Positions 27,101-46,516 of a stretch of DNA of 64,000 bases are shown piece after piece. Position 1 is the stretch's first letter, and the number at the start of each line of letters is the position of its first letter. The stretch comes from Kocuria rhizophila DC2201 (lineage in GTDB: Bacteria > Actinomycetota > Actinomycetes > Actinomycetales > Micrococcaceae). The notes beneath the pieces were generated by a model, which was not told the origin of the DNA, ran no database searches, and was given only the letters and a program-made list of their open reading frames with translations. The stretch is taken from positions 806,001 to 870,000 of the forward strand of contig NC_010617.1 in NCBI RefSeq assembly GCF_000010285.1, given 5' to 3'. The translations under genes were made by a program, and so were the position numbers.

Positions 27101-27219
27101 CCACCGGCAGCCCGGCGCGTCCCGGCGGGTGACGAGTCCACAGCGTGCCCCGTGCAGATGCGCGGGGCACACGGCGTTGTCCGGCTCCCGCGCCGAGGCG
27201 TGCTGATGCCTCCCGTTGA

Positions 27220-28044
27220 TTAGCGGTGGGCAACTGGCGGCGTCGGTGTGCCTGCCGGCAGCCACACCCACCCTTCGCGGGCGACGACGGACACCAGCTC
27301 AGGTGGCGCGGGCTCGCAACTGCCGAGGTCCACCTCTCGTGCCACCAGGGCGGCGACGACGGCGTCCAGCACGTTATCGTCCGCCCGGCACATCGAATCG
27401 TGCCCCAACCACTCGAGCCACGGCAGGTGCGTCACCAGGCGCGTCACCAGGTTGTGACGGTGGGTCGCGTTCTTGCTCCCCTTGTAGCCACGGTGCGGGA
27501 GTCCCCAACGGGCCAGCGCGGCCGCCGGGTACACCTCGCATGCGCGCCCCGAACCATCCCGGGGGACGTCGATTCCGGCATCGAGAAGGCGGCTCTCTAG
27601 AGCGGCCCAGCGCAGCGCCGGATACGCAATCCGGTCCGTGGAGACGCTCAGGGGAATCAGGCCTGTGCGAGAGCGCACGTGGAGATCCGTGGTGCGCTGA
27701 GCCATGTTGCGGCGCCACGCCGGATCGGTCGAAGGCGGAGCGGTCACCTGCCCGGTGGCCTGGGCGCAGATGTAGTCCACGAACGGTGCGGGCCAGCCGA
27801 AGGGAACGTCAATTCCTGCTCGGTGCACGTCGCGGACCACGGCCAGCACGTCGGCATCCGTCGCACCGAGGTCCACCCGTTCCACCACCACCCGGCCGGG
27901 TTCCTCCCGGATCACGGCGATGCCCGTGCGCGCGGGGTCCGCCGCGAGGTCCACGCCTGCGTATCGGCGGCGCGTCCGCGTCTGCGCATCGGGCCCCACG
28001 CGCTGAGCAGATTCGTGGGAGGGGGGCGCGGGCTCACCAGTCAT
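27220..28044 (-). CDS. DUF429 domain-containing protein
   Basis: The product is 274 residues from ATG at 28044. DUF429 features include the opening strand YAGVDLAADPARTGIAVI, GIDVPFGWPAPFVDYI, the RTTDLHVRSRTGLIPLSVS block near residue 120 and VYPAAALARWGL. The D-rich RNase-H-like strand plus these motifs suggests a nuclease-like fold, but no activity is established for the family. It probably acts in the cytoplasm. No Shine-Dalgarno site precedes the ATG; TAGGGT six bases upstream suggests a leaderless transcript. It is divergent from the type III polyketide synthase with only 47 bp between the starts. Confidence 0.85.
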   Translation of the reverse strand: MTGEPAPPSHESAQRVGPDAQTRTRRRYAGVDLAADPARTGIAVIREEPGRVVVERVDLGATDADVLAVVRDVHRAGIDVPFGWPAPFVDYICAQATGQVTAPPSTDPAWRRNMAQRTTDLHVRSRTGLIPLSVSTDRIAYPALRWAALESRLLDAGIDVPRDGSGRACEVYPAAALARWGLPHRGYKGSKNATHRHNLVTRLVTHLPWLEWLGHDSMCRADDNVLDAVVAALVAREVDLGSCEPAPPELVSVVAREGWVWLPAGTPTPPVAHR

Positions 28045-28050
28045 GGGGCC

Positions 28051-28056
28051 ACCCTA
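28051..28056 (-). promoter_or_regulatory. Predicted -10 (TAGGGT) for leaderless DUF429 gene
   Basis: Minus-strand TAGGGT ends 6 bases before the ATG at 28044, which places the expected transcription start at or next to the start codon. Confidence 0.5.
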
Positions 28057-28080
28057 GGCCGCGGGGCCTGAGCGGGTGCC

Positions 28081-28086
28081 TACCAT
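28081..28086 (+). promoter_or_regulatory. Predicted -10 (TACCAT) for leaderless polyketide synthase operon
   Basis: TACCAT ends 5 bases before ATG 28092. Only a weak GGGG lies between, so initiation may be leaderless. Confidence 0.4.
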
Positions 28087-28091
28087 GGGGC

Positions 28092-29291
28092 ATGACCGTT
28101 CGCATGCTGTCGATCGAGACCCTGGTCCCTGACACCGTCATCCGGCAGGAGGACGTCACGCGGCTCTTCGCGCAGCAGCCGGAGATGACGCGGTTGGGGT
28201 CCCGGCTCGTGCGCTCCGCGTTCGACGGCGCCGGGGTGGCCACGCGCCACACCGTCCTCCCGGAGCTGGGCACCGCGGCCGACCGCGCCGGCTCGGCTGC
28301 GGGTGCCGGGGCCGCACCCTCCGAGGACGTCCCTGGCGGATCGCCGCGAGCAGGGGGCGACGCCGCGGCGTCGCCGTTCGTCGACCCCGGAACCGGCCAC
28401 CTGCTGTCACCGGGCACGCACGCGCGCAACCGGATCTACACGGAGCACGCGAAACGCCTGTTCGTGGAGGCGGCCCGCGCGGCCCTCGACGCGGCGGGGG
28501 ACGAGGTCACCGCGGCGGACGTGACCCACGTGATCACGGTGTCCTGCACCGGGTTCTTCGCACCGGGCCCGGACGTGCGGGTGGCCAAGGACCTCAGGCT
28601 GCCCGTGGACGTGAAGCGCGCCCACTTCGGCTTCATGGGGTGCAATGCCGCGTTCCCCGCGCTGCAGGCGGCGGCCACCGCGTGCCGGGCGGATCCGGAC
28701 GCCGTGGTGCTCGTCGTGTGCGTGGAGCTGTGCACCCTGCACCTGCACGTGCGCAACGACCCCGACACGGTGATGGGCAACGCCCTGTTCGCGGACGGCG
28801 CGGCGGCCGCGGTGGTGTCCGCGCGCGACGTCGCCGTCCCCGGCCCCACCCTCGAGCTCGTCGACTTCGAGACCACCCTGGCGCCCGTGGGCGAGGAGGA
28901 GCTCGCGTGGAGTGTGGGGGACGAGGGCTTCGAGATGATCCTGGGCAGCTACGTGCCCCGCATCATCGACGACCACGTGACGGACGCCCTGGCACCCCTG
29001 CTTCGGCGCACGGATCTCGCGGTGGCGGACATCCCCCAGTGGGCCGTGCACCCGGGCGGGCGCAGCATCCTGGACAAGGTGGAGTCCCGGCTGGGCCTGG
29101 CGGAGGAGCAGATGCTCCCATCTCGGGAGGTGCTCCGCGAGGCGGGGAACATGAGCAGCGCCACCATTCTCTTCGTCCTGGCCCGCCTGCTGCAGACCGG
29201 GGCGCCCGGGCCCGTGGCGGCCATGGCGTTCGGGCCGGGCCTGAGCATCGAGTCCGCCCTGCTCCGCCTCCTCCCGGCCGCGCAGCGCTGA
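28092..29291 (+). CDS. Type III polyketide synthase (chalcone/stilbene synthase-like)
   Basis: The product is 399 residues. The catalytic triad is complete: Cys184 in GFMGCNAAFP, His320 in WAVHPGGRSILD and Asn353 in AGNMSSATI. These synthases extend a starter acyl-CoA with malonyl-CoA and cyclise the product to a pyrone, resorcinol or similar ring in the cytoplasm. An Ala/Gly/Pro-rich insert at about residues 60-100 replaces the short loop of other family members; it is coded partly by the recurrent GACGCCGCGGCG-type sequence. The stop overlaps the methyltransferase start by one base, so the two act together: a polyketide is made, then methylated. The product cannot be predicted; an alkylpyrone or alkylresorcinol is the commonest bacterial outcome. 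Confidence 0.92.
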   Translation: MTVRMLSIETLVPDTVIRQEDVTRLFAQQPEMTRLGSRLVRSAFDGAGVATRHTVLPELGTAADRAGSAAGAGAAPSEDVPGGSPRAGGDAAASPFVDPGTGHLLSPGTHARNRIYTEHAKRLFVEAARAALDAAGDEVTAADVTHVITVSCTGFFAPGPDVRVAKDLRLPVDVKRAHFGFMGCNAAFPALQAAATACRADPDAVVLVVCVELCTLHLHVRNDPDTVMGNALFADGAAAAVVSARDVAVPGPTLELVDFETTLAPVGEEELAWSVGDEGFEMILGSYVPRIIDDHVTDALAPLLRRTDLAVADIPQWAVHPGGRSILDKVESRLGLAEEQMLPSREVLREAGNMSSATILFVLARLLQTGAPGPVAAMAFGPGLSIESALLRLLPAAQR

Positions 29292-32466: not shown

Positions 32467-33177
32467 TCAGCCGATGCCCGGGGGCCACTCGCCCGCGTGG
32501 TCGATGGACTCGGTGTCCGGGTTCCACGTGTAGGTGGACACGGCCCGGCCACGGGCCTCGGCGTTGCTCTCGCTGCCCTCCACGTACCTGTAGGTCACCT
32601 GGATCGTGGCGTCGTCCAGGCGCACGGTGCTCGGGGAGAAGCCGATGGCCTTGGACGTGGTGGTTCCCAGGTACTCGCCGTGGTGGAACAGCATCTGCGT
32701 GTACGGGGAGGAGACCGTGGCGCCCTCGATCACCAGGGTCACCCAGGACAGCTCCGCGCAGGGGTCGTAGTTGTCCGAGTCCTGGACCATCCAGTCGACG
32801 TTCTGCGTGCCGTCGGGGAACGCGGCCGGCACCTTGCCGATGTTCTCGTCCACCGCCTGCTGCGCGCTGGTGGTGGCGCACGAGTTCTTGGGCTCGGGGG
32901 ACGACGCCGCCGGGGCCGGGGTGCTCGCCCGGTCGCCGCTGCCACGGGTGCCGGAGGGCGCACCGCTCCCGCCCGCGGGCTGCTGCGCCTCGTCCGGGGC
33001 GGACGGGGCCGAGGAAGCCGCACGGGAGCGGATTCCCGAGGTGGGGCCGCCGTCGATCTCGGACGTGGTGGACATGGACCGTGGCTGCTCGGTGGAGTCC
33101 GCGCCGCAACCGGTCAGGGACCCGGTGGCCAGCAGGGCCAGCGCCACCGTGGTCGCAAGTGTCCGGGATCGGTTCAT
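32467..33177 (-). CDS. LppP/LprE-family lipoprotein
   Basis: The product is 236 residues from ATG at 33177. The signal peptide ends in the lipobox LTGC (Cys24), so it is diacylglyceryl-anchored outside the membrane. Residues 25-95 are a Ser/Pro/Ala/Gly-rich spacer, partly coded by the GACGACGCCGC motif (32900). The domain follows: YDPCAELSWVTLVIEGAT, then SSPYTQMLFHHGEYLGTTT, IQVTYRYVEGSESNAEARG and YTWNPDTESI. It is a paralogue of the neighbouring secreted protein at about half identity over the domain by eye. No function is established for the family. Confidence 0.85.
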   Translation of the reverse strand: MNRSRTLATTVALALLATGSLTGCGADSTEQPRSMSTTSEIDGGPTSGIRSRAASSAPSAPDEAQQPAGGSGAPSGTRGSGDRASTPAPAASSPEPKNSCATTSAQQAVDENIGKVPAAFPDGTQNVDWMVQDSDNYDPCAELSWVTLVIEGATVSSPYTQMLFHHGEYLGTTTSKAIGFSPSTVRLDDATIQVTYRYVEGSESNAEARGRAVSTYTWNPDTESIDHAGEWPPGIG

Positions 33178-33426
33178 GGTGTGCCCCTCGCGCTGTGCCG
33201 CCCCGTCGTCTCGCGGGTCGAGTTCAGCGTGCCCCGTTTGGTTCGCAACGGCAACAACCACATGATTACTCATGCGTACGTGTCGACCCGGGCGTCGTGG
33301 TGGCCGCCGGCAGCGTGGTGGCCACGGGCGTCGTCGTGACCGGCAGTGGAGCCGACGGCGCGCCCCGCCGTAGTCTGGCCGTGCGCGCGACCGCGCGGCA
33401 CACCAGACACAGGCGAGGAGCACCCC

Positions 33427-33765
33427 ATGACGCAGCCCATCCCGGACCCCAACCCGCTGGACGATCCCGAGGTGCAGGACCAGATCCTGGGCAAGGACGA
33501 GTTCGCGGAGACCTCCGGCGGCGAGGACGACGCCTGGGAGGAGGACGACGCCCAGTGGGGCCAGGACGCGGACCCGCTCAAGCACCCCGAGGAGGCCGAC
33601 GTGCGTCAGCTGGCCGACGACGAGACGCTGATGGTGGGCCACGACACCGAACCCGAGATCCAGGACCCGGAGGTCGAGGCGCTCGCCGACGACCCGCAGG
33701 CGGACCGGGAGGTCAACCGCGGGCTGGAGGAGCGCGACGTGGACCCCGCCGACCCTGCCGAGTGA
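33427..33765 (+). CDS. Small, strongly acidic hypothetical protein
   Basis: The product is 112 residues from ATG at 33427 with GAGGAG upstream. It is very rich in Asp and Glu (about 40 acidic residues), with the repeats EDDAW and EDDAQ coded by two GACGACGCC copies. There is no signal peptide, hydrophobic core or recognised domain, so it is probably largely disordered. Similar acidic DUF-like proteins of unknown function are common in Micrococcales. It is followed by the formate dehydrogenase operon but separated by 55 bp containing that operon's own -10 box. Confidence 0.75.
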   Translation: MTQPIPDPNPLDDPEVQDQILGKDEFAETSGGEDDAWEEDDAQWGQDADPLKHPEEADVRQLADDETLMVGHDTEPEIQDPEVEALADDPQADREVNRGLEERDVDPADPAE

Positions 33766-33808: not shown

Positions 33809-33814
33809 TAGTCT
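33809..33814 (+). promoter_or_regulatory. Predicted -10 (TAGTCT) of the formate dehydrogenase operon
   Basis: TAGTCT ends 6 bases before ATG 33821, with no good Shine-Dalgarno site at the usual spacing. This suggests leaderless initiation of the selenoprotein mRNA. Confidence 0.5.
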
Positions 33815-33820
33815 TTTCCC

Positions 33821-36800
33821 ATGTCTCGATTCAGCCCGTTGGAGTGGCCGGTCATCCGCCAGCTCCGCACCGGGGACCACACCGGCCGCAGCAGTGCGGT
33901 GCAGTCCCGCAGGACCCAGGAGATCACCGCGCGCACCGCCACGGCGGACCGCGTGGTGCAGAGCATCTGCCCGTACTGCGCCGTGGGCTGTGGACAGAAG
34001 GTCTACGTCAAGGACGAGCGCGTCATCCAGATCGAGGGCGACCCGGACTCTCCCATCTCCCGTGGTCGGCTGTGCCCGAAGGGCTCCGCGAGCGAGCAGC
34101 TCGTGAACTCCCCGGGCCGCCAGACGCAGGTCCTCTACCGCGCGCCCGGTGCCGCCGACTGGCAGCCCCTGGACCGGGACACGGCCATCGACATGATCGC
34201 CGACCGCTTCCTGGAGTCCCGACGCCGCGGCTGGCAGGACGCGGACGAGGAGGGCCGTCCGCTGCGCCGCACCATGGGCATCGCGTCCCTGGGCGGGGCC
34301 ACGCTGGACAACGAGGAGAACTACCTCATCAAGAAGCTCTTCACCGCGGCGGGGGCGGTGCAGATCGAGAACCAGGCCCGGATTTGACACTCCGCCACGG
34401 TTCCCAGTCTGGGAACCTCCTTCGGCCGCGGTGGCGCCACGCAGTCACTGCAGGACATGGCCAACGCGGACTGCATCGTCATCCAAGGCTCCAACATGGC
34501 CGAGTGCCACCCCGTGGGCTTCCAATGGGTCACTGAGGCCAAGGCGCGCGGCGCCCGTGTGATCCACGTGGACCCGCGGTTCACGCGCACCTCCGCCGTG
34601 TCGGACAAGCACCTGCCCATCCGTGCGGGATCGGACATCGTGCTGCTCGGGGCGCTGATCAACCACGTCCTGAGCAACGACCTCTGGTTCCACGAGTACG
34701 TGCTGCACTACACCAACGCGGCCACCCTCATCAGCGAGGACTTCGAGGACGCCGAGGACCTCGACGGCATCTTCTCGGGCTACGACCCCGAGACCGGCGC
34801 CTACCACCTGAAGTCCTGGGGCTACCAGACCGAGGACGAGGGCCAGGGGGAGCGGGCCGACGAGAAGCGCAACCAGGGCCACGAGGAGCGGGCGCAGGCC
34901 GGTGGTCAGCAGTACGGCAGCGGCGGTGCCCCCGTGGGCTCCGGCACCCCGGTGCGTGACGAGACCCTGCAGCACCCGCGCACGGTGTTCCAGATCCTCA
35001 AGCGCCACTTCTCCCGGTACACCCCGGAGATGGTGCGGGAGACCTGCGGCATCTCGGAGGAGGACTTCGACTACCTCGCCCGCTCCGTCACGGAGAACTC
35101 CGGGCGGGAGCGCACCACGTGCTTCGCGTACGCGGTGGGGTGGACCCAGCACACACTGGGTGCACAGTTCATCCGCACGGCCTCGATCCTGCAGCTGCTG
35201 CTGGGCAACATGGGCCGCCCGGGCGGCGGCATCATGGCGCTGCGCGGGCACGCCACCATCCAGGGCTCCACGGACATCCCCACCCTGTTCAACCTGCTGC
35301 CCGGATACCTGCCCATGCCCTCGGTCACGGCGCAGAGCTTCTCCGAGTACGTGGACGGCATCCGCACCACCAGCCAGAAAGGGTACTGGGCGAACGCCGA
35401 GGCGTACTCGGTCAACCTGCTGAAGGCGTGGTGGGGGGATGCCGCCACCGCCGAGAACGACTGGGCCTACGACTACATCCCGCGCATCAACGGGGCCCAC
35501 GGCACCTACCAGACGCTGATGTCCATGCTCAAGGACCAGGTGGAGGGGTACTTCCTGCTGGGGCAGAACCCCGCAGTGGGCTCGGCCAACGGCCGCATGC
35601 AGCGCATGGGCATGTCCCACCTCAAGTGGCTCGTGGTGCGGGACCTCAACATGATCGAGTCCGCCACGTGGTGGAAGGACGGCCCGGAGATCGCCTCGGG
35701 CGAGCTGAAGACCGAGGACATCGACACGGAGGTCTTCTTCATGCCCGCGGCCACGCACGTGGAGAAGGCCGGCTCCTTCACCCAGACCCAGCGTCTGGTG
35801 CAGTGGCGCCACCAGGCCGTGGCCCCGCCGGGGGACGCCCAGAGCGAGCTGGAGTTCTTCTTCGAGCTCGGCAACCGGATCCGGGAACGCCTCGCGGACT
35901 CCACGGACCCCCGGGACCGGCCGCTGCTGGACCTCACGTGGGACTACCCGCTCGACGAGCAGGGCGAGGTGGACCCGGTGTCCGTGCTGGCCGAGATCAA
36001 CGGTCGCTTCGAGACCGGCGAGCAGGCGGGTGAGCCGCTGAGCAACTACGGCCAGATGCGCACGGACGGCTCCACGTCCGGCGGCTGCTGGATCTACACG
36101 GGCATCTACGCGGACCGCGTCAACCGCGCGTCGCTGCGCGTGCCCGGGTGGCAGCAGGACGAGATCGCCTCGCAGTGGGCGTGGGCGTGGCCCGCCAACC
36201 GCCGGATCCTCTACAACCGCGCCTCGGCGGACCCCGAGGGCAAGCCGTGGAGCGAGCGCAAGAAGCTCGTGTGGTGGGACCAGGAGGAGGGGCAGTGGAC
36301 CGGCAAGGACAATCCGGACTTCCCGCTGGACCGCGCGCCCTCCGCGCGGCCGGGCCCGGACGCCGCCGGGCCGGACGCGCTCGCCGGTGACGACCCCTTC
36401 ATCATGCAGGCGGACGGCAAGGCCTGGCTCTTCGCGCCCAAGGGCATGATGGACGGGCCCCTGCCCACGCACTACGAGCCGCAGGAGTCCCCGGTGGACA
36501 ACCCGCTGTACACGCAGCAGCAGAATCCCGCGCGGATCATGTTCCCGCGGGAGGACAACCTGTCCGCGCCCAGCGGGCAGGCGCCCGGCACCGGTGTCTA
36601 TCCGTTCGTGTTCACCACCTACCGGCTCACGGAGCACCACACGGCCGGCGGCATGAGCCGCTGGCTGCCGTACCTCTCCGAGCTGCAGCCCGAGATGTTC
36701 TGCGAGATCTCCCCGGAGCTCGCGCAGCTCAAGGGGCTGGAACCCTACGGGTGGGCCACCATCATCTCGCCGCGCTCCGCGATCGAGGTCAAGGTGCTGG

Positions 36801-37204
36801 TCACCGACCGCATGACACCGCTCACCGTGGCGGGCAGGACCATCCACCAGATCGGTCTGCCGTACCACTGGGGAGCGGGCTCGGACGCGGTGGTCACGGG
36901 CGACGGAGCGAACGACCTGCTGGGCATCACGCTGGACCCCAACGTGCAGATCCAGAACTTCAAGACGGGCTCGTGCGACATCGTCCCGGGGCGTCGGCCC
37001 CGGGGCGCCGACCGCCTGGAGCTGGTGCGCCAGTACCAGGAGCGGGCGGGGCTCACCGTGCGCACGGGCATGGAACGCATCACGGATCCCGAGCGTGAGC
37101 TCGGCCAAGGTCCGCTGCGAGGACGCGACAGCGGGGACGTCGCGGGGCAGTCCACGGCCTGGCGGCCGGACGCCCCCGTCACGGACCAGGAAGAAGACCA
37201 GTGA
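33821..37204 (+). CDS. fdnG: Selenocysteine-containing formate dehydrogenase alpha (molybdopterin) subunit
   Basis: The full reading is 1,127 residues with an in-frame UGA as codon 189 (34385-34387). Residues 49-95 bind a 4Fe-4S cluster (CPYCAVGCG, then GRLCPKGSAS). The active site reads NQARI-Sec-HSATV, exactly where formate dehydrogenases carry Sec or Cys bound to Mo/W, followed by ANADCIVIQGSNMAECHP. The C-terminal domain (FKTGSCDIVP, HWGAGSDAVV) binds the pterin cofactors. It oxidises formate to CO2 and passes electrons to the beta subunit. There is no twin-arginine signal at the N-terminus, so a cytoplasmic-facing complex is likely. Hydrophilic inserts at about residues 341-382 and 830-860 lengthen it relative to E. 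coli FdnG. The stop overlaps the next start (GTGA). Reading it as two broken genes is unlikely, given the Sec machinery downstream. Confidence 0.93.
34385..34417 (+). promoter_or_regulatory. Selenocysteine codon (UGA) with bSECIS hairpin
   Basis: UGA at 34385-34387 is followed by GGTTCCCA-GTC-TGGGAACC (34399-34417), an 8-bp perfect stem with a GUC loop centred 21 bases after the UGA. The loop distance and the AGUCU apex resemble the E. coli fdhF SECIS element read by SelB. A weaker outer pairing (CGCCAC 34393-34398 with GTGGCG 34431-34436) may extend it. Confidence 0.85.
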
Positions 37205-38415
37205 GCACGGACCGAGCGACACCCACCCCCAGCTTCGCGGACGACACCTACTGGGACCATCCGCACCACCGGCGCGGGTTCTTCACGGACACGTCCATCT
37301 GCATCGGCTGCAAGGCCTGCGAGGTGGCGTGCAAGGAGTGGAACCGCAACCCGGTGGACTCGGACTACGAGATCCTGGGTTCCTCCTACGACAACACGGG
37401 GGGTCTCGGGGCTGACACCTGGCGCCACGTGGCATTCATCGAGCAGTCCCAGGAGCGCATCGAGCAGGCCCGCGAGTCCGGGCGCGCGCTCGTGAGCCTC
37501 GGCATGCCGCGCGTGGGGCCCCCGGCGGCGTCGCCTGCCGCGGGCGGGTGCGCGTCCGGTTCCGCGGCTGCCGCGGAGGACTCCGCCGGGTGCGCGTGCG
37601 GTGGTTCGGGGCCCGACGACGCCGCGGGGCCCGGTTGCGCGTGCTCGTCCCAGTCCACCCCCGGCGTCACCGCGCCGGTGGGCTGCGGATCGGCGGGCGG
37701 CTGCGGCTGCTCCTCCGCCGGCCCGGCGACCGACGCCGCAGGCACGGGCGGGGACGGCTCCCCGGTGCTGGACACCCCCGACTTCCGGTGGCTGATGTCC
37801 TCGGACGTGTGCAAGCACTGCACCCACGCCGGATGCCTGGACGTGTGCCCCACGGGCGCGCTGTTCCGCACCGAGTACGGCACTGTGGTGGTGCAGGAGG
37901 ACATCTGCAACGGCTGCGGCACGTGCGTGGCCGGGTGCCCGTTCGGGGTGATCGAGCGCCGCAACGACGGGCTGGTGGAGCCGAAGACTCAGCGGGGCGC
38001 CCCGCCCATGCCGGACACCGTGAAGGTGCCCCAGGACGGCATCGCCCAGAAGTGCACCCTGTGCTACGACCGCATGAAGAACGACCAGACCCCCGCATGC
38101 GCGCAGGCGTGCCCCACCACCTCCATCAAGTACGGGGAGCGGGAGAGCATGCTCGCCACGGCGCAGCAGCGGGTGGCCCAGCTGCACGAGCAGGGCAAGA
38201 CCGAGGCGCGGCTCTACGGCGCCAACCCGAACGACGGCGTGGGTGGCACGGGCTCGATCTTCCTGCTCCTCGACGAGCCGGAGGTCTACGGGCTGCCGCC
38301 GGACCCGCAGGTGCCCACCAAGGACCTGCACCGCATGTACAAGCGGGCGGGCATGGCCGTGGTGGGCATGCTGGCCCTCGGCGCGGCGGCCTTCACGGCG
38401 GGTGAGCGCTCATGA
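37201..38415 (+). CDS. Formate dehydrogenase iron-sulphur (beta) subunit with Cys/Gly-rich insert
   Basis: The product is 404 residues from GTG at 37201, which overlaps the alpha stop by 4 bases. Four ferredoxin-type sites are visible: CIGCKACEVACKEW (residues 34-47), CKHCTHAGCLDVCP (204-217), CNGCGTCVAGCPFG (about 241-254) and CTLCYDRMKND...CAQACPT. It carries electrons from the alpha subunit to the NrfD anchor. Residues about 101-190, between the first and second sites, are an insert of Ala, Gly, Ser and eight Cys (C117, C131, C133, C146, C148, C162, C168, C170) absent from E. coli FdnH/FdoH. A hydrophobic C-terminal stretch (AVVGMLALGAAAF) may touch the membrane. Its stop overlaps the nrfD start. 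Confidence 0.9.
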   Translation: MSTDRATPTPSFADDTYWDHPHHRRGFFTDTSICIGCKACEVACKEWNRNPVDSDYEILGSSYDNTGGLGADTWRHVAFIEQSQERIEQARESGRALVSLGMPRVGPPAASPAAGGCASGSAAAAEDSAGCACGGSGPDDAAGPGCACSSQSTPGVTAPVGCGSAGGCGCSSAGPATDAAGTGGDGSPVLDTPDFRWLMSSDVCKHCTHAGCLDVCPTGALFRTEYGTVVVQEDICNGCGTCVAGCPFGVIERRNDGLVEPKTQRGAPPMPDTVKVPQDGIAQKCTLCYDRMKNDQTPACAQACPTTSIKYGERESMLATAQQRVAQLHEQGKTEARLYGANPNDGVGGTGSIFLLLDEPEVYGLPPDPQVPTKDLHRMYKRAGMAVVGMLALGAAAFTAGERS

Positions 38416-39524
38416 GCCTCTCCCCGTACGACAGCTACCGCCCGCCCGAGGAGCCGCGGCGCAAGCGGCGTCGCCGGAACCGTGGACCGGGCGGGGGAGC
38501 GTTCCGCCGCGGCGGCGGGGACGGCTCCCGCGAGATGCCCATGGTGCCCGAGACGGAGTTCACGTCCTACTACGGCCGCCCGATCGTCAAGGCACCGCCG
38601 TGGGACTCGAAGATCGCCACGTACCTGTTCCTGGGCGGGCTGGCCGGCGGCTCCGCGATCCTGGCGCTCGGCGCGCACCTCACGGACCGGCCGGCCCTGC
38701 GCCGCAACTCCCGGCTGAGTGCACTGGGTGCGGCCGGGCTCGGCAGCATCGCCCTGGTCGCGGACCTCGGGCGGCCCGAGCGCTTCCTGCACATGATGCG
38801 CACGTTCAAGCCCACCTCGCCCATGAGCATGGGCTCGTGGGTGCTCGCGACGTTTGCCACGAATGCCGGTGTGGCCGCCGCAGTGGAGGTGGACCGCATT
38901 ACGGGGCAGCGGCTCCCGCTGGGCCCCCTGCGCCCCGTGCTGCACGCGGTGGAGACTCCCACGAGTGTGGCCTCGGGCATCCTCGGGGCGCCCATGGCCA
39001 CCTACACCGCCATGCTGCTCGGCGACACCTCGGTGCCCACGTGGCACGAGATGCACGGGCACCTGGCTTTCGTGTTCGCGAGCTCCGCGTCCCTGGCCTC
39101 CGGCGGGCTGGCCATGCTCACCACGCCGGTGGAGCAGGCCGCACCCGCCCGGTTCTTCGCGGTCGCGGGCGTTGCGGGGGAGCTCGTGGCCATGCGCGTG
39201 ATGAAGGACGCCATGGACCCCGTGACTGTGGAACCCATCGAGCAGGGTCGGCCCGGCCAGTGGCTCGAGTGGAGCGAGCGGCTCTCGATCGCCGGTGGCC
39301 TGGGAGCGCTGCTCGGCGGACGACGCCGCTGGGTCGCCGCGGCCTCGGGACTCGCCCTGGTCTCGTCCTCGGCCCTCACACGCTTCGGCGTGTTCTGGGG
39401 CGGCAAGGAGTCCGTGAAGGACCCCAAGTACACGGTGATCCCGCAGCGCAACCGGTTGAACAAGCGCCGCGCCTCGGGCATCACGGACGACTCGATCACC
39501 ACGGGCCCGCCGAGCACCGCGTAG
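38412..39524 (+). CDS. nrfD: NrfD/PsrC-family membrane anchor of formate dehydrogenase
   Basis: The product is 370 residues from ATG at 38412 (ATGA overlap). After a basic, Gly/Arg-rich N-terminal 40 residues and SYYGRPIVKAPPW comes a bundle of about eight to nine helices beginning YLFLGGLAGGSAILALGAHL, the usual NrfD opening. DLGRPERFLHMMRTFKPTSPMS is the conserved quinone-site loop of this family. It should pass electrons to menaquinone without haem, replacing the cytochrome b gamma subunit found in E. coli FdnI. It is the third gene of the fdh operon. The loop GGRRRWVAA is coded by a GACGACGCCGC copy (39319). Confidence 0.9.
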   Translation: MSLSPYDSYRPPEEPRRKRRRRNRGPGGGAFRRGGGDGSREMPMVPETEFTSYYGRPIVKAPPWDSKIATYLFLGGLAGGSAILALGAHLTDRPALRRNSRLSALGAAGLGSIALVADLGRPERFLHMMRTFKPTSPMSMGSWVLATFATNAGVAAAVEVDRITGQRLPLGPLRPVLHAVETPTSVASGILGAPMATYTAMLLGDTSVPTWHEMHGHLAFVFASSASLASGGLAMLTTPVEQAAPARFFAVAGVAGELVAMRVMKDAMDPVTVEPIEQGRPGQWLEWSERLSIAGGLGALLGGRRRWVAAASGLALVSSSALTRFGVFWGGKESVKDPKYTVIPQRNRLNKRRASGITDDSITTGPPSTA

Positions 39525-39531
39525 GCAGAGC

Positions 39532-39732
39532 ATGGCGGGCGACCCTGAGAAAGAGGGCAAAGGCCCCATTCATCACAAGAGTCGAACGGCAGTGGCGCTG
39601 GTCTTTCTCATGCTCGGCGTCGTCTACGTGCTGACGCTGGACAGTACGGTCATCGGGGTTCCATTCCTCCTCATCGGCCTCTCGATCCTGGCCACCGGGT
39701 GGTTCCCCCGCGCACGAGGACCGAAGGAATAG
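39532..39732 (+). CDS. 66-residue two-helix membrane protein at the end of the fdh operon
   Basis: The ATG at 39532 is 7 bp after the nrfD stop, so it is co-transcribed. A basic N-terminal stretch (KGPIHHKSRT) leads to two hydrophobic segments (about residues 19-36 and 40-57) with a short extracytoplasmic turn. I recognise no family. Codon use is less GC-rich than in nrfD. A role as an accessory subunit or assembly helper of the formate dehydrogenase membrane complex is inferred only from position. Confidence 0.65.
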   Translation: MAGDPEKEGKGPIHHKSRTAVALVFLMLGVVYVLTLDSTVIGVPFLLIGLSILATGWFPRARGPKE

Positions 39733-39747
39733 GGCCTCGAATCCGGC

Positions 39748-40785
39748 TCAGCGCACGGTGACCAGGGTGTCCGTGGTCTCCGGGAGCGCGGTGGTCTCGC
39801 CGATCACCGGGTAGCCCGGGACCTCGCCCACCACGAGCAGCCCGCCCGAGGTCTGGGCGTCCGAGAGCAGCAGCAGGGTGTCCTCCGTGACGCCTGAGCC
39901 CGCCGCGAGGTGGGGTCGCACCCAGTCCAGGTTGCGCCGCGTGCCGCCCGAAACGAATCCGTCCCGCAGCGCGTCGGCGGCTCCCTCCACGAGGGGCACG
40001 GCGGCGGCGTCGATCGTGGCGCCCACGCCCGAGGCGCGGCACATCTTGTACAGGTGGCCCAGCAGGCCGAATCCCGTGACGTCCGTGGCCGCCTCGACCC
40101 CGGCCGCCAGCGCGGCCCGCGAGGCGTCCCTGTTGAGAGCGGTCATGGTCTCGATCGCCGCGGGGAAGACCTCGCCCGTGGCCTTGTGCCGGTTGTTGAG
40201 CAGCCCCACGCCGATCGGCTTGGTCAGGGTGATCGGCAGACCGGGCCGTGCGGCGTCGTTGCGCAGCAGGCGCTGCGGGTCCGCGGTGCCCGTGACCGCC
40301 ATGCCGTACGTGGGCTCGGGGGCGTCGATCGAGTGCCCGCCGATCACCGGGCAGCCGGCCTGCGCGGCAACGTCCAGCCCGCCCTGCAGCACCTCGGACA
40401 TCAGCTCCATGGGCAGCAGCTCGCGCGGCCAGCCCACCAGGTTGATGGCCACCACCGGGGTGCCGCCCATGGCGTAGACGTCCGAGAGGGCGTTGGCGGC
40501 GGCGATCCGGCCCCAGTCGTGGGCGCTGTCCACCACGGGGGTGAAGAAGTCCGCCGTGGACACGACCGCGAGGTCCGGGCGCACGAGAACGGCCGCGGCG
40601 TCGTCGCCGTCGTCCAGGCCCACGAGGACGTCCGGCGCGTTCTGACCAGTCAGCCCGCGCACCGCGTCCTCCAGCTCTCCCGGGGGGATCTTGCACGCGC
40701 AGCCGCCGCCGTGGGCGTAGCTCGTGAGGCGGCCGAGACCCGCTGCGGGGTCCTGGGCGGGGGAGTCCGTGGTGCGTTCGCTCAT
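39748..40785 (-). CDS. selD: Selenophosphate synthetase
   Basis: The product is 345 residues from ATG at 40785. The catalytic segment is GGGCACKIPPGEL (Cys29, Cys31, Lys32), the Cys form of the usual CGCK motif. DDAAAVLVRPDLAVVSTADF and GGTPVVAINLVGWP are the ATP- and metal-binding AIRS-type strands, and DVTGFGLLGHL is typical of SelD. It makes selenophosphate from selenide and ATP, the selenium donor for SelA. It converges on the fdh operon with 15 bp between stops, and is divergent from the tRNA-Sec gene. A TACACT -10 ends 6 bases before the ATG, suggesting a leaderless mRNA. Confidence 0.95.
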   Translation of the reverse strand: MSERTTDSPAQDPAAGLGRLTSYAHGGGCACKIPPGELEDAVRGLTGQNAPDVLVGLDDGDDAAAVLVRPDLAVVSTADFFTPVVDSAHDWGRIAAANALSDVYAMGGTPVVAINLVGWPRELLPMELMSEVLQGGLDVAAQAGCPVIGGHSIDAPEPTYGMAVTGTADPQRLLRNDAARPGLPITLTKPIGVGLLNNRHKATGEVFPAAIETMTALNRDASRAALAAGVEAATDVTGFGLLGHLYKMCRASGVGATIDAAAVPLVEGAADALRDGFVSGGTRRNLDWVRPHLAAGSGVTEDTLLLLSDAQTSGGLLVVGEVPGYPVIGETTALPETTDTLVTVR

Positions 40786-40791
40786 GGGGCC

Positions 40792-40797
40792 AGTGTA
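40792..40797 (-). promoter_or_regulatory. Predicted -10 (TACACT) for leaderless selD
   Basis: Minus-strand TACACT ends 6 bases before the selD ATG; there is no Shine-Dalgarno site in between. Confidence 0.5.
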
Positions 40798-40858
40798 GGA
40801 ACGCGCTCCGACAGGCTGCTGAGCATGCGGGTCCGCGGGCGGTGGTACATTCGGCCGC

Positions 40859-40953
40859 GGAGGCGTCCGTGTCCTGGTGGGCGCCCCGGTCTTCAAAACC
40901 GGTGAGACCGAGCACCTCGGTCTGGCGGGTTCGATTCCCGTCCGCCTCCGCCA
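40859..40953 (+). tRNA. selC: tRNA-Sec (anticodon UCA)
   Basis: A 95-nt gene including an encoded CCA, the same length as E. coli tRNA-Sec. A GGAGGCG acceptor strand pairs with CGCCTCC. The D arm has a 6-bp stem (GUGUCC/GGGCGC) with a 4-base loop UGGU, the hallmark of tRNA-Sec. The anticodon stem CCGGU/ACCGG holds the loop CUUCAAA with UCA at 40893-40895. A long variable arm (AGACCGA/UCGGUCU) and a T arm with UUCGAUU follow. The eighth acceptor pair would be U-C (40866/40942), a mismatch. It lies between selD and selA and decodes the fdnG UGA. Confidence 0.95.
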
Positions 40954-41191
40954 ACCTTTCGAGCATCAGGACCCCGGGGACTGCTGCGACCACGCCCGCG
41001 GCCGGTCGGCCGCCCACCCGGGAGGCTGCCACGCCCCAGTGCTCGCGGTGGGCGCGCGCGGGGCCTTCGCGGGCACCCGTGCGCAGCTCCCGCCGCATCC
41101 CGGGGCGCGCGCTCACCCGGGCGTTGAAGGGCCGACGCGCAACCGGGACGGCCGTGGGACACGGCCTCCCATCATCCACCCGAGGAGCATC

Positions 41192-42499
41192 GTGAGCACA
41201 GAGGACCCCCGCCGTCGCATCCCCCGCACGGACCGCGTGCTGGCGGACCCGCGGGTCCGTGCGGCGGCCGGAGGACTGGGCGACGCCGCGGTGCGAGCCG
41301 CCGTCCTCGCCGTCCAGCAGCGCGCGCGGGCCGGTGAGATCGCCCCGGAGGCCGTGGTGGACGCGGTGGTCACGAGCCTGAGCACCCGCGGCGCGAGCAG
41401 CCTGACCCCGGTGCTCAACGCCACCGGCGTGGTGGTGCACACCAACCTGGGCCGGGCCCCGCTCTCCGACGCCGCGCGGCAGGCCGTTCTCGACGCCTCC
41501 GGCTACGTGGACGTGGAGCTGGAGCTGGCCACCGGGCAGCGCTCGGCGCGCGGCGAGGGTGCCCGGGAGGCTCTGCTGGAGGCGTGCCCCGCTGCCGAGG
41601 ACGCGCTGGTCGTGACCAACGGCGCCGCCGCGCTGGTGCTCGCCACCACGGCCCTGGCCGGCACCCGCGAGGTGGTCGTCAGCCGGGGGGAGTTCGTGGA
41701 GATCGGCGCGGGGTTCCGGCTCTCGGACCTCATGGAGTCCACGGGGGCGCGTCTGCGCGAGGTGGGCACCACCAACCGCACCCACCCGGACGACTACGCG
41801 GCCGCGCTGGGTCCGGAGACCGGGTGCATCCTCAAGGTCCACCCCAGCAACTTCCGGGTGGCGGGCTTCACCTCGGCCGTGCCGCTGCGGGAGCTGCGGT
41901 CCCTCGCGGACGAGCACGGCGTGCCGCTCGTGGTGGACGTGGGCAGCGGCCTGCTGACCCCGGACCCCGCGCTCCCGGACGAGCCGAGCCTCTCGGAGGC
42001 CCTGGAGGCCGGGGCGGACGCCGTGATCGCGAGCGGGGACAAGCTCCTCGGCGGCCCCCAGGCGGGCCTGCTGCTCGGGCGTGCGGAGACGGTCCGGCGC
42101 CTGGCGCGCTTCCCGCTGGCCCGGGCGGTGCGCGCGGACAAGCTCACGCTCGCGGCCCTCGAGGCGACCCTGCGCGGGGGCGCGACGCCGGTCGACGTCG
42201 CCCTGCACGCGGAACCCGGCCGCCTGCGGGAACGCGCGGAAGCCCTGGCCGCCGCGGTGGGCGCGGAGGTCGTGCCCCACGACGGTCGTGTGGGCGGCGG
42301 CGGCGCCCCGGGGGTGCCGCTGCACGGGTGGGCCGTGCGGCTGCCCGAGGCCACCGCCCGCTCCCTGCGCCTCGGGCGCCCGGCCGTGCTGCCCCGGGTG
42401 CACGACGGCGCGTGCCTCGTGGACCTGCGCTGCGTGCCGGAATCCCGTGACCGGGACCTGGCCGACGCCGTGACGGCGGCGCTGGAGGGGCTCCGCTGA
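41192..42499 (+). CDS. selA: L-seryl-tRNA(Sec) selenium transferase
   Basis: The product is 435 residues from GTG at 41192 with GAGGAG upstream. PLP-enzyme features are clear: NATGVVVHTNLGRAPLS near residue 76, VVTNGAAALVLATTALAG near 140, SRGEFVEIGAGFRL, VDVGSGLL near 248, and SGDKLLGGPQAG with the PLP-binding Lys284. It converts Ser-tRNA(Sec) to Sec-tRNA(Sec) using selenophosphate. The stop overlaps the selB start by one base, so the two are translationally coupled. The 238 bp back to tRNA-Sec have no gene. Confidence 0.96.
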   Translation: MSTEDPRRRIPRTDRVLADPRVRAAAGGLGDAAVRAAVLAVQQRARAGEIAPEAVVDAVVTSLSTRGASSLTPVLNATGVVVHTNLGRAPLSDAARQAVLDASGYVDVELELATGQRSARGEGAREALLEACPAAEDALVVTNGAAALVLATTALAGTREVVVSRGEFVEIGAGFRLSDLMESTGARLREVGTTNRTHPDDYAAALGPETGCILKVHPSNFRVAGFTSAVPLRELRSLADEHGVPLVVDVGSGLLTPDPALPDEPSLSEALEAGADAVIASGDKLLGGPQAGLLLGRAETVRRLARFPLARAVRADKLTLAALEATLRGGATPVDVALHAEPGRLRERAEALAAAVGAEVVPHDGRVGGGGAPGVPLHGWAVRLPEATARSLRLGRPAVLPRVHDGACLVDLRCVPESRDRDLADAVTAALEGLR

Positions 42500-44286
42500 T
42501 GCACGTGGTGGCGACCGCCGGTCACGTGGACCACGGCAAGAGCACCCTGGTCCGGGCACTCACCGGCATCGAACCGGACCGCTGGGACGAGGAGAAGCAG
42601 CGCGGGCTGACCATCGACCTCGGCTTCGCGTGGACCGAGCTGCCCTCGGGCACGCACGTGGCGTTCGTGGACGTCCCCGGGCACGAACGCTTCCTCGGGA
42701 ACATGCTCGCGGGGGTCGGGCCCGCACCGGTGGTGTGCTTCGTGGTCGCCGCGGACGAGGGTTGGCAGGAGCAGTCCGGCGACCACCGGGACGCCGTGGC
42801 CGCCCTCGGGATCAGCCACGGGCTGATCGTGGTGACCAAGGAGGACCGTGCCCCGGAGCGGGTCGACGCCGTGATCTCCCGCGCTCGCTCAGAACTCGCC
42901 GGCACGGGACTCGCGCAGGCCCCCGCCGTCGTCGTCTCCGCGCGGCAGGGCACGGGTCTGGACGAGCTGCGCGACGCGCTGGACGCCGTGCTGCACGACG
43001 TGCCGGAACCGGACGCGACGGCGCGCGTGCGGCTGTGGATCGACCGCGCCTTCACCATCTCGGGGGCGGGGACCGTGGTCACCGGCACGCTCACGGCGGG
43101 GACGCTGCGCACCGGCGACCGGATGACGCTGCGCGGGGTGGAGGGGCAGCAGACCGTCACCGTGCGCTCGCTGCAGAGCCAGAACCGCTCCGTGACGCAG
43201 ATCGGGCCCACCGCCAGGGTGGCCGTGAACCTGCGCGGGGCCGACCGGGACACGATCCACCGTGGTGACGTGCTCCTGACCCCCGAGACCTGGCCCGCCA
43301 CGGAGGTCCTGGAGGTGCGCCGCAACGGCGGGGCGCCGTTCATCGAGGTCCCCGAGGAGCTCGTGGTCCACGCGGGCACCGCGGGCGTGGGCGCGAGGAT
43401 CCGGCCGCTGGACGCCGAGCACGCGCGGTTGCAGCTGGACCACGCCCTGACCCTGTTGCCGGGCGACGGGCTCGTGCTGCGCTACCCGGGGGCCCGCGTG
43501 GTCGTGGGCGGTGCCCGGGTGCTGGACGTGGACCCGCCCGCGCTGTCCCGCCGCGGTGACGGCACCCGCGAGGCCGCCCGGCTCGCCCGGATCCCCGACC
43601 TCGGGGACCCGGTGGCGGAGACCGTCAAGCACGGGGCGGTCCCGCTGCAGCGGCTGCGGCTGCTCGGGTTTGCCACGGATGGAACCCTGCCGGACGACGT
43701 GGTGTCCACCGGGCAGTGGTGGATTCACGCCCCGCGCCTGGAGGAGTGGGCCACCCGGCTGCGCGCTGCCGTGGAGGCCGCCCACGAGGGGGAGCCGCTG
43801 GCACCGGGGCTGTCCCGCGGGGCCGCACGCACGGTGCTCGGTGAGCCCGGGGCGCACGTCCTGGCCGCCGTGGTCGACCGCGCGGGGCTCGCGGACCGGG
43901 ACGGGTACCTCGCGGTGCCCGGACGGCCGGGCGGACTCGGCGCCGCGGAGCAGGGCGTGGCCGCACTGGAGGCCCGGCTGCGTGCCCAGCCCTTCGCGGC
44001 CCCCGAGGCCCACGACCTCGATGCGCTGCGGCTCGGTCCGCGCGAACTCGCCGCGGCGCAGCGGCTCGGTCGGCTGCTGCGGCTGCCGGGCGACGTCGTG
44101 CTGCTGCCCACCGCGCCCGCGCTCGCGATGCGCGAGCTCGCCCGCCTCCCGCAGCCCTTCACCACGAGCCAGGCCCGGCAGGCGTGGGGGACCACCCGCA
44201 GGGTGGCGATCCCGCTGCTCGAGCACCTCGATGCCAGGGGATGGACCCGTCGGGAGGATGGCACCACCCGCAGCATCGTGCGCTGA
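42499..44286 (+). CDS. selB: Selenocysteine-specific elongation factor SelB
   Basis: The product is 595 residues from ATG at 42499 (TGATG overlap with selA). The GTPase domain has G1 GHVDHGKS (8-15), G2-region GLTIDLGF, G3 DVPGHERF (58-65) and G4 TKED in place of the commoner TKxD/NKxD. Domains II and III follow (RVRLWIDRAFTISGAGTVVT, TPETWPATEVLEV). Four winged-helix units occupy the C-terminus from about residue 370 to the end (QAWGTTRRVAIPLLEHLD near 550), which bind the SECIS hairpin. It delivers Sec-tRNA(Sec) to ribosomes at the fdnG UGA. A GGGGACCC/GGGTCCCC hairpin follows the stop. Confidence 0.95.
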   Translation: MHVVATAGHVDHGKSTLVRALTGIEPDRWDEEKQRGLTIDLGFAWTELPSGTHVAFVDVPGHERFLGNMLAGVGPAPVVCFVVAADEGWQEQSGDHRDAVAALGISHGLIVVTKEDRAPERVDAVISRARSELAGTGLAQAPAVVVSARQGTGLDELRDALDAVLHDVPEPDATARVRLWIDRAFTISGAGTVVTGTLTAGTLRTGDRMTLRGVEGQQTVTVRSLQSQNRSVTQIGPTARVAVNLRGADRDTIHRGDVLLTPETWPATEVLEVRRNGGAPFIEVPEELVVHAGTAGVGARIRPLDAEHARLQLDHALTLLPGDGLVLRYPGARVVVGGARVLDVDPPALSRRGDGTREAARLARIPDLGDPVAETVKHGAVPLQRLRLLGFATDGTLPDDVVSTGQWWIHAPRLEEWATRLRAAVEAAHEGEPLAPGLSRGAARTVLGEPGAHVLAAVVDRAGLADRDGYLAVPGRPGGLGAAEQGVAALEARLRAQPFAAPEAHDLDALRLGPRELAAAQRLGRLLRLPGDVVLLPTAPALAMRELARLPQPFTTSQARQAWGTTRRVAIPLLEHLDARGWTRREDGTTRSIVR

Positions 44287-45491: not shown

Positions 45492-45639
45492 GACGACGCC
45501 GCGGGGACAGCCCGCCTGGCGACCGCGCGGCGATGCCCCGTCCCGCGACAGCCCTACCCGGCGACAGCCCGGCCGGGCACCAACCCGGCCCGACAACAAC
45601 CGGGCCCGACGACGCCGGGGCGCGCTGGCGGCGTCGTCG
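45492..45639. repeat. GC-rich low-complexity spacer with three GACGACGCC motifs and a hairpin
   Basis: The spacer has GACGACGCC at 45492 and 45608 and its complement at 45630. CGACGACGCC (45607-45616) pairs with GGCGTCGTCG (45630-45639) as a hairpin. Between them lie imperfect CCGGC-GACAGCC tandem units. It is probably the terminator of the upstream gene plus simple repeats. No coding evidence. Confidence 0.5.
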
Positions 45640-45669
45640 TCGGCTTTGCCGGGCTCCGCGCCCGCGCAG

Positions 45670-45675
45670 TAGATT
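45670..45675 (+). promoter_or_regulatory. Predicted -10 (TAGATT) for leaderless esterase-EamA operon
   Basis: TAGATT ends 7 bases before GTG 45683, with no ribosome site between. Confidence 0.5.
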
Positions 45676-45682
45676 GACCCCC

Positions 45683-46516
45683 GTGCCCCAGGACCCCAGA
45701 CCCACACTGAAGACCACGCTCATCGGCTCGGGGGAGCACCGTGTGGTGTTCCTGCACGGACTGTTCGGGCGGGGCAAGAACTTCACCAACATCGCCAAGG
45801 GGCTGCAGCCCGAGTTCAGCTGCCTGCTCGTGGACCTGCCCAACCACGGTGAGTCCGCGTGGACCGAGAGCTTCGGCTACGCCGCCATGGCGGACACCGT
45901 GGCCGAGCAGCTGAGTGCGGACTTCGCCGCCGCGGGCCCCGTGGACGTGGTGGGGCACTCGATGGGCGGGAAGGTGGCGATGGTGCTGGCGCTGCGCCAC
46001 CCCGATCTCGTGCGCCGGCTCGTGGTCGAGGACATCGCCCCCGTGGACTCGCAGGAGGCGGACACCACCTCCTCGCGCGGCAACTTCGAGCACCTGCTCG
46101 GTTCGCTCAAGCGCCTGGACCTCACCGGCATCACCCACCGTTCCCAGGCCGACGCCGCCCTGCGCGCCGACATCCCCGATGACACCGTCCGCGGGTTCCT
46201 CCTGCAGAACCTGCGGCACCGGGACGGCGGTTTCGGCTGGCAGCCCAACCTGGACCTGCTGCACGACGAGCTCGGGGTGATCGGGGCCTGGCCGGCCGAC
46301 GACGTCGCCGGGCTCAGCTACCCGGGCCCCGTCCTGTGGGTGGCGGGGGAGAACTCGCCGTACATCCAGGAGGCGGACGCCCCGGCCATGCGGGCGCTGT
46401 TCCCCAAGACCGTGCGGATCACCGTGCGCGGCGCAAGCCACTGGGTGCACGCGGACCGGCCGGAGCAGTTCACCAAGGCACTGCGCACGTTCCTGCTCGC
46501 AGACCACCGGGCGTGA
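45683..46516 (+). CDS. Alpha/beta hydrolase, YbfF-like esterase
   Basis: The product is 277 residues from GTG at 45683. VVFLHGLFGRGKNF provides the oxyanion region, DLPNHGESAW is typical of YbfF-like esterases, and GHSMGGKVAMVLAL near residue 93 holds the nucleophile Ser. VLWVAGENSPYI carries the likely acid side and GASHWVHADRPEQF the catalytic His near 255. It is a cytoplasmic carboxyl-ester hydrolase of unknown substrate. The stop overlaps the next start (GTGA), so it is co-translated with the EamA transporter. Confidence 0.9.
   Translation: MPQDPRPTLKTTLIGSGEHRVVFLHGLFGRGKNFTNIAKGLQPEFSCLLVDLPNHGESAWTESFGYAAMADTVAEQLSADFAAAGPVDVVGHSMGGKVAMVLALRHPDLVRRLVVEDIAPVDSQEADTTSSRGNFEHLLGSLKRLDLTGITHRSQADAALRADIPDDTVRGFLLQNLRHRDGGFGWQPNLDLLHDELGVIGAWPADDVAGLSYPGPVLWVAGENSPYIQEADAPAMRALFPKTVRITVRGASHWVHADRPEQFTKALRTFLLADHRA

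Follow-up and report, generated by a model that had tools for sequence, protein, structure and literature searches.

The in-frame UGA codon of the formate dehydrogenase gene fdhA in Kocuria rhizophila DC2201 is, on comparative evidence, very probably read as selenocysteine (Sec). The gene lies in a window of 64,000 nucleotides (positions 806001-870000 of a 2,697,540-base single-contig genome). We give a probability of about 0.97 to the reading in which the fdhABC-selDCAB block yields one Sec-containing formate dehydrogenase of about 125 kDa through SelB and a hairpin, and in which this enzyme feeds the quinone pool. The sequence-only reading had already proposed a single gene with UGA as Sec, and the proposal was supported because homology, the hairpin, covariation at synonymous positions and co-occurrence with the Sec apparatus agreed. 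The features are collected in the table.

Table. Coordinates of the features of the fdh-sel block, given as positions in the window
Feature	Position	Strand	Evidence and remarks
Putative leaderless -10-like element TANNNT (TAGTCT)	33809..33814	+	6 nt before ATG
fdhA, formate dehydrogenase alpha subunit	33821..37204	+	1127 residues, residue 189 read as Sec; family match and frame analysis
UGA codon, candidate selenocysteine	34385..34387	+	Mo/W ligand position, QARI-U-HSATV; comparative codon data and 1h0h alignment
SECIS-type hairpin	34399..34417	+	7-bp stem GGTTCCC / GGGAACC, loop AGTCT; begins 11 nt 3' of UGA
fdhB, 4Fe-4S beta subunit, 404 aa	37201..38415	+	Pfam Fer4 families; Cys-rich interdomain linker, one C-terminal hydrophobic segment
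nrfD-type membrane anchor	38412..39524	+	PF03916; two hydrophobic segments (simple hydropathy)
selD, selenophosphate synthetase, Cys form	39748..40785	-	GGGCACK motif; TIGR00476, 381 bits
selC, tRNA-Sec, UCA anticodon	40859..40949	+	RF01852, 77.2 bits; ARAGORN 40859-40953
selA, selenocysteine synthase	41192..42499	+	TIGR00474, 400 bits; PF03841; putative start
selB, Sec-specific elongation factor	42499..44286	+	TIGR00475, 290 bits; PF09107, C-terminal winged-helix domain

In the proposed pathway, which is the standard bacterial one for Sec, SelD would make selenophosphate and SelA would convert Ser-tRNA-Sec to Sec-tRNA-Sec; the charged tRNA would be delivered to the ribosome by SelB docked on the hairpin 3' of the UGA. 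The UGA at 34385-34387 would then be read as Sec to give the single protein of about 125 kDa, in which Sec189 would be a ligand of the Mo/W-bisMGD centre. Electrons would pass from FdhA to the iron-sulfur subunit FdhB, to the NrfD-type anchor and on to the quinone pool. The enzyme would be membrane-anchored. No hydrophobic segment was found by hydropathy scan in FdhA residues 1-60 (best 19-residue mean 0.7), suggesting that the catalytic side is probably cytoplasmic. We infer Sec insertion, the metal, the activity, the electron acceptor and the membrane side from established knowledge of the family.

The open reading frame 33821-34387 began with ATG and encoded 188 aa before ending in the TGA at 34385-34387. 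Downstream of it the frame stayed open to 37204, and the first ATG of this second part (34457) would give a protein of 915 aa; the two same-phase frames of 188 and 915 residues, parted solely by the UGA, were reproduced as first described. Read through, the gene encoded 1127 residues with a calculated mass of 124.9 kDa for the Cys form, and GC3 was 0.94 on the 5' side of the TGA and 0.95 on the 3' side. The joined translation, which the sequence-only reading had wanted aligned to formate dehydrogenase families, matched NCBIfam NF041513 (formate_DH_Act) over residues 7-1075 with 1928 bits (cut-off 1400) and TIGR01553 with 933 bits (cut-off 814). PF04879, PF00384 and PF01568, covering the 4Fe-4S and molybdopterin-binding domains, also exceeded their cut-offs. 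By these family scores and domains fdhA is an actinobacterial formate dehydrogenase alpha subunit, with formate oxidation as its predicted function. The placement of the UGA residue at the Mo/W ligand position held as well: U189-H190 aligned with X-H of Desulfovibrio gigas FdhA (1h0h) in the motif QARI-X-HSATV. Two minus-strand frames, 34445-37222 and the antisense frame 39671-42559 (no Pfam match), were taken for high-GC artefacts.

The gene was compared in a set of 117 genes from 116 genomes, window included, one genome carrying two copies. A search of 27 genomes of the genus supplied 24 of these genes, and the remaining 93 came from the other members of a sample of 297 genomes of the order (fdhA search threshold E up to 1e-180). 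At the UGA position the codon was TGA in 115 genes, TGC in one and TGT in one, which on these codon data excludes a chance origin of the UGA. A non-Sec, non-Cys residue in close relatives had been named as a refuting observation; all 117 genes carried UGA or a Cys codon, so this comparative test was passed. In four genus members (G004, G013, G014, G021) a second stop was counted, and the next in-frame stop lay 919-933 codons past the UGA, showing that it was the gene's own end. In the incomplete draft G001, fdhA was in several pieces.

The hairpin after the UGA resembled the Escherichia coli elements fdhF (GGTTGC-AGGTCT-GCACC) and fdnG (GGTAGC-AAGTCT-TGCTCC), which by eye stand at an equal distance from their UGA. 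The likeness to fdhF is one of letters and spacing, RNAfold having given a different fold on a short fdhF slice. Three features were invariant across the 115 TGA genes: the inner C-G pairs, the loop's GT and the distance from the UGA. Pair 4-16 of the hairpin joins two synonymous third codon positions (Val GTN and Gly GGN); it was paired in 115/115 UGA genes while its state varied (TA 79, CG 21, GT 11, TG 3, GC 1). Among 56 distinct 36-nt windows used for covariation, 20 cells were changed on both sides compared with 5.2 after shuffling, and none of 500 shuffles reached as high. When the hairpin partner was slid by 1 to 3 columns, just 0 to 5 double-changed cells remained. The outer pairs were not universal: 9 of the 56 windows lacked pair 1-19 and 12 lacked pair 3-17, and RNAalifold alone returned only an inner five-pair helix. 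Two pairs carried a double change, a count no better than in shuffles, 144 of 500 of which reached as many.

Codon usage was examined in 113 genes, over the 115 fourfold columns lying no more than 120 codons from the UGA. The highest third-base A/T shares (0.72 and 0.79) were at the two hairpin positions of pair 4-16; the next highest was 0.46 and the background mean 0.10. The lone GTT among the 59 Val codons of the window's fdhA sits in the hairpin. By these patterns the hairpin is under selection at synonymous positions. The SECIS model had one strong match in the genome that holds the window (62.5 bits), and the second-best match (17.4 bits) lay on the opposite strand of the fdhA hairpin. 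No strong further selenoprotein with this SECIS type was found in that genome among the 150 of 5425 first-look candidates that were scored, a search that weak ones could escape.

In the genus, with E limits of 1e-9 for tRNA-Sec and 1e-60 for SelB, 24 of 27 genomes had both together with the UGA gene (SelB being in pieces in two drafts), and the other three (G010, G011, G019) lacked all of them. The fdhA family was present in 93/297 sampled genomes of the order and in 30/95 genera, with the UGA form in 91. Selenoproteins had been described as rare in Micrococcales; these counts do not fit that statement, with the proviso that the order sampled here may differ from the Micrococcales meant. With a tRNA-Sec line of 60 bits, which is our own (the Rfam cut-off is 47), all 91 UGA genomes had tRNA-Sec, 2 genomes had fdhA without it, 6 had tRNA-Sec without fdhA and 198 had neither. 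A further 17 genomes had tRNA-Sec matches only near 50 bits, bringing those above the Rfam cut-off to 114/297; when these were counted, 23 genomes had tRNA-Sec without the gene and 181 had neither, and the 91 and 2 were unaltered. Since the genes form one block, the co-occurrence is partly linkage.

The two genomes with fdhA and no tRNA-Sec (G078, G203) were exactly the Cys ones. In them tRNA-Sec was not found at E 1e-8, SelB gave nothing over its cut-off, no such hairpin was seen, and the SECIS model had no match under E 0.8. The hairpin was absent from the natural Cys versions at loci L068 (TGC), L107 (TGT) and L146 (TGC); in L146, from Nonomuraea, it was looked for by eye, and no tRNA-Sec or sel gene lay within 9 kb on either side. 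These hairpin-less Cys versions are a clean internal control. Among genomes with tRNA-Sec and no fdhA, G321 held fdhB, nrfD, selD and selA on a contig starting inside fdhB, indicating that its fdhA was probably just cut off. Five loci (L162-L166, from G134, G190, G283, G030 and G036) carried tRNA-Sec but no such fdhA; within the stretch retrieved, all five had selA and selB and four also had selD. A rough search around their sel genes for frames containing an internal TGA turned up no convincing candidate.

Named relatives were scanned with one genome per species, giving at least 583 confirmed stretches, of which the best 80 were kept. TGA and hairpin were present in 80/80 of these loci, which overlap with the 117-gene set. 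The closest fdhA among the matches listed, which may leave out the window's own genome, was that of Kocuria rhizophila TA68 (97% identical). Holders among the matches listed included Kocuria, Arthrobacter, Sinomonas, Glutamicibacter, Citricoccus, Nesterenkonia, Brevibacterium and Leucobacter, together with Mycobacterium and Gordonia, which we take to be outside the order. The many genera, all with TGA and hairpin, show that the trait is not rare.

These data bear on two other ways of accounting for the UGA. Readthrough by another tRNA (e.g., Trp or Cys, near-cognate) would leave the same reading frame, which alone cannot separate it from Sec; however, tRNA-Sec accompanied the UGA gene in 91/91 UGA genomes of the order sample and was missing from the 2 Cys genomes, the hairpin is placed where the E. 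coli SECIS elements stand, and selA, selB and selD are adjacent, making such readthrough very improbable. That the UGA is a true stop in a pseudogene or split gene, through nonsense mutation or sequencing error, agrees with the two frames that table 11 yields, but is hardly credible given the UGA kept in 24/24 genus genes and 115/117 overall (which ruled out a pseudogene or sequencing error), the GC3 of 0.95 after the UGA and the conserved hairpin.

The reading of the UGA as Sec also draws on the neighbouring genes. The claim that four Sec genes lie within 10 kb was borne out, with selD, tRNA-Sec, selA and selB located at 39748-44286, and fdhB and the NrfD-type anchor gene were placed between fdhA and selD. 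SelD carried GGGCACK, presumably the active-site motif. The selA open frame opened at 40877, overlapping tRNA-Sec. The top NCBIfam model for fdhB was TIGR01582 (FDH-beta), below its cut-off (163 of 334.7 bits). For 38412-39524, Pfam matches were to NrfD families only and NCBIfam gave only nrfD and ttrC models, far below cut-off. The FdhB linker (about residues 108-190) was expanded, with GCAC/GCGC-like Cys repeats, in K. rhizophila and near relatives. Of 58 loci, 50 were readable: the linker contained 2-9 Cys in 13 of 22 genus members and 0 in the 28 loci from elsewhere; these residues could reflect drift or metal binding. Upstream of the fdh-sel block, a frame at 27216-29291 had chalcone/stilbene synthase-type (type III polyketide synthase) domains.

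The fdhA transcript looks leaderless from its upstream sequence. A TANNNT element was found 5-8 nt upstream of the start in 24/24 genus genes (22 at 6 nt, 2 at 7 nt) and in 56/88 others, with a background rate over the fetched loci of 0.0007 per position. Shine-Dalgarno-like words were present in 4/24 genus genes and 24/88 others.

E. coli FDH-N (FdnGHI; 1kqf) shares the TIGR01553 equivalog with the Kocuria enzyme and has Sec at the same place, with a hairpin 11 nt after the UGA and the loop AGTCT. The Tat system exports FdnG, and the FdnI subunit is a cytochrome b. By contrast, the Kocuria alpha subunit had no export signal (hydropathy only) and the anchor is of NrfD type; neither an alpha signal peptide (by hydropathy) nor a cytochrome b gamma subunit (by Pfam and NCBIfam) was found. 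Parallels also come from related bacteria. In the part of PMC2830990 available, the Corynebacterium aurimucosum cluster comprises fdnG, fdxH, selD, selA, selB and selC, with a UGA within the alpha gene and beta-subunit and sel genes clustered as in the window; it belongs to another genus, and the likeness is one of cluster description. A cluster of this kind has been published for Streptomyces incarnatus, according to an excerpt of PMC4498112. Sections of PMC7176365 describe selenium-dependent formate removal by Actinomycetospora, with FDH and Sel proteins detected. There, FDH1 of Actinomycetospora chiangmaiensis DSM 45062 is like the window in having fdhA1, B1 and C1 with selA and selB, and Sec as the metal ligand; unlike the window, that system has experimental support and three Sec-FDHs, and SelD is not listed with FDH1 in those sections, the likeness again being by description (PMC7176365). 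The Kocuria system is one more example, and an unremarkable one, of a type known from related bacteria. Titles and abstract openings in the open-licence literature contained no report of selenocysteine in Kocuria or of a K. rhizophila formate dehydrogenase; such reports may exist elsewhere.

The full fdhABC-selDCAB block with tRNA-Sec was also found on two plasmids. One was pYA7-1a of Arthrobacter sp. YA7-1 (L144, NZ_CP110115.1, 9001-18874), typed conjugative, where the block adjoins a Tn3-family transposase; the other was a Tsukamurella tyrosinosolvens plasmid typed non-mobilizable (L145, NZ_LR134459.1, 9001-18553). Both had tRNA-Sec between selD and selA, and both had the TGA and the hairpin. 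The pYA7-1a block shared gene order and strands with the window, including selD on the minus strand, and differed from it in being plasmid-borne beside the transposase and in an alpha subunit 74% identical. Automatic annotation had been expected to split the gene. However, RefSeq annotated both plasmid homologues full length, as a single CDS across the UGA (3333 bp in Arthrobacter sp. YA7-1, 3165 bp in Tsukamurella), so the forecast fails for those two.

These copies suggest, tentatively and at somewhat less than even odds, that the block forms a compact unit, complete in itself and able to move between genomes, and that such movement accounts for some of its scattered distribution, perhaps also for its presence in the window's lineage. 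A quick-method tree of 115 rows required 17 label changes over all families, where 10 would be the minimum. In the window's family the count was 4, but the starred branches forced only 1, so transfer into that lineage was not shown; 2 changes were forced for each of families f14, f7, f3 and f5. Empty sites were sought by searching the neighbours 45533-46516 and 32467-33642 in G010, G011 and G019, and in the controls G000, G012 and G008. The best matches in G010 were 56% and 43% identical and about 70 kb apart, in G011 they were on two contigs, and in G019 only 45533-46516 was found, giving no clean junction. Two Arthrobacter strains figure among the Sec-trait recipients in the available part of PMC5029168. 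A plasmid passage in PMC1794560 concerns selD without known selenium traits, and the portion of PMC4741004 at hand reports no selenoproteins. No report of a plasmid-borne Sec trait appeared by title or abstract opening among the matches listed from the open-licence literature, and one may exist elsewhere.

Actinomycetes are mostly aerobic. The sequence of the window argues strongly for a selenoprotein in Kocuria, and the hairpin alignment is a tested SECIS model for this formate dehydrogenase family. Selenocysteine use of this kind was common in the order (91/297 sampled genomes), despite the statement, in the part available of a 2026 review, that aerobic bacteria seldom keep selenoproteins (PMC13188914). 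The plasmid-borne block offers a testable route by which a whole code extension could move in one step; if the block is indeed such a transferable unit, the 21st amino acid would arrive along with the enzyme that repays its cost.
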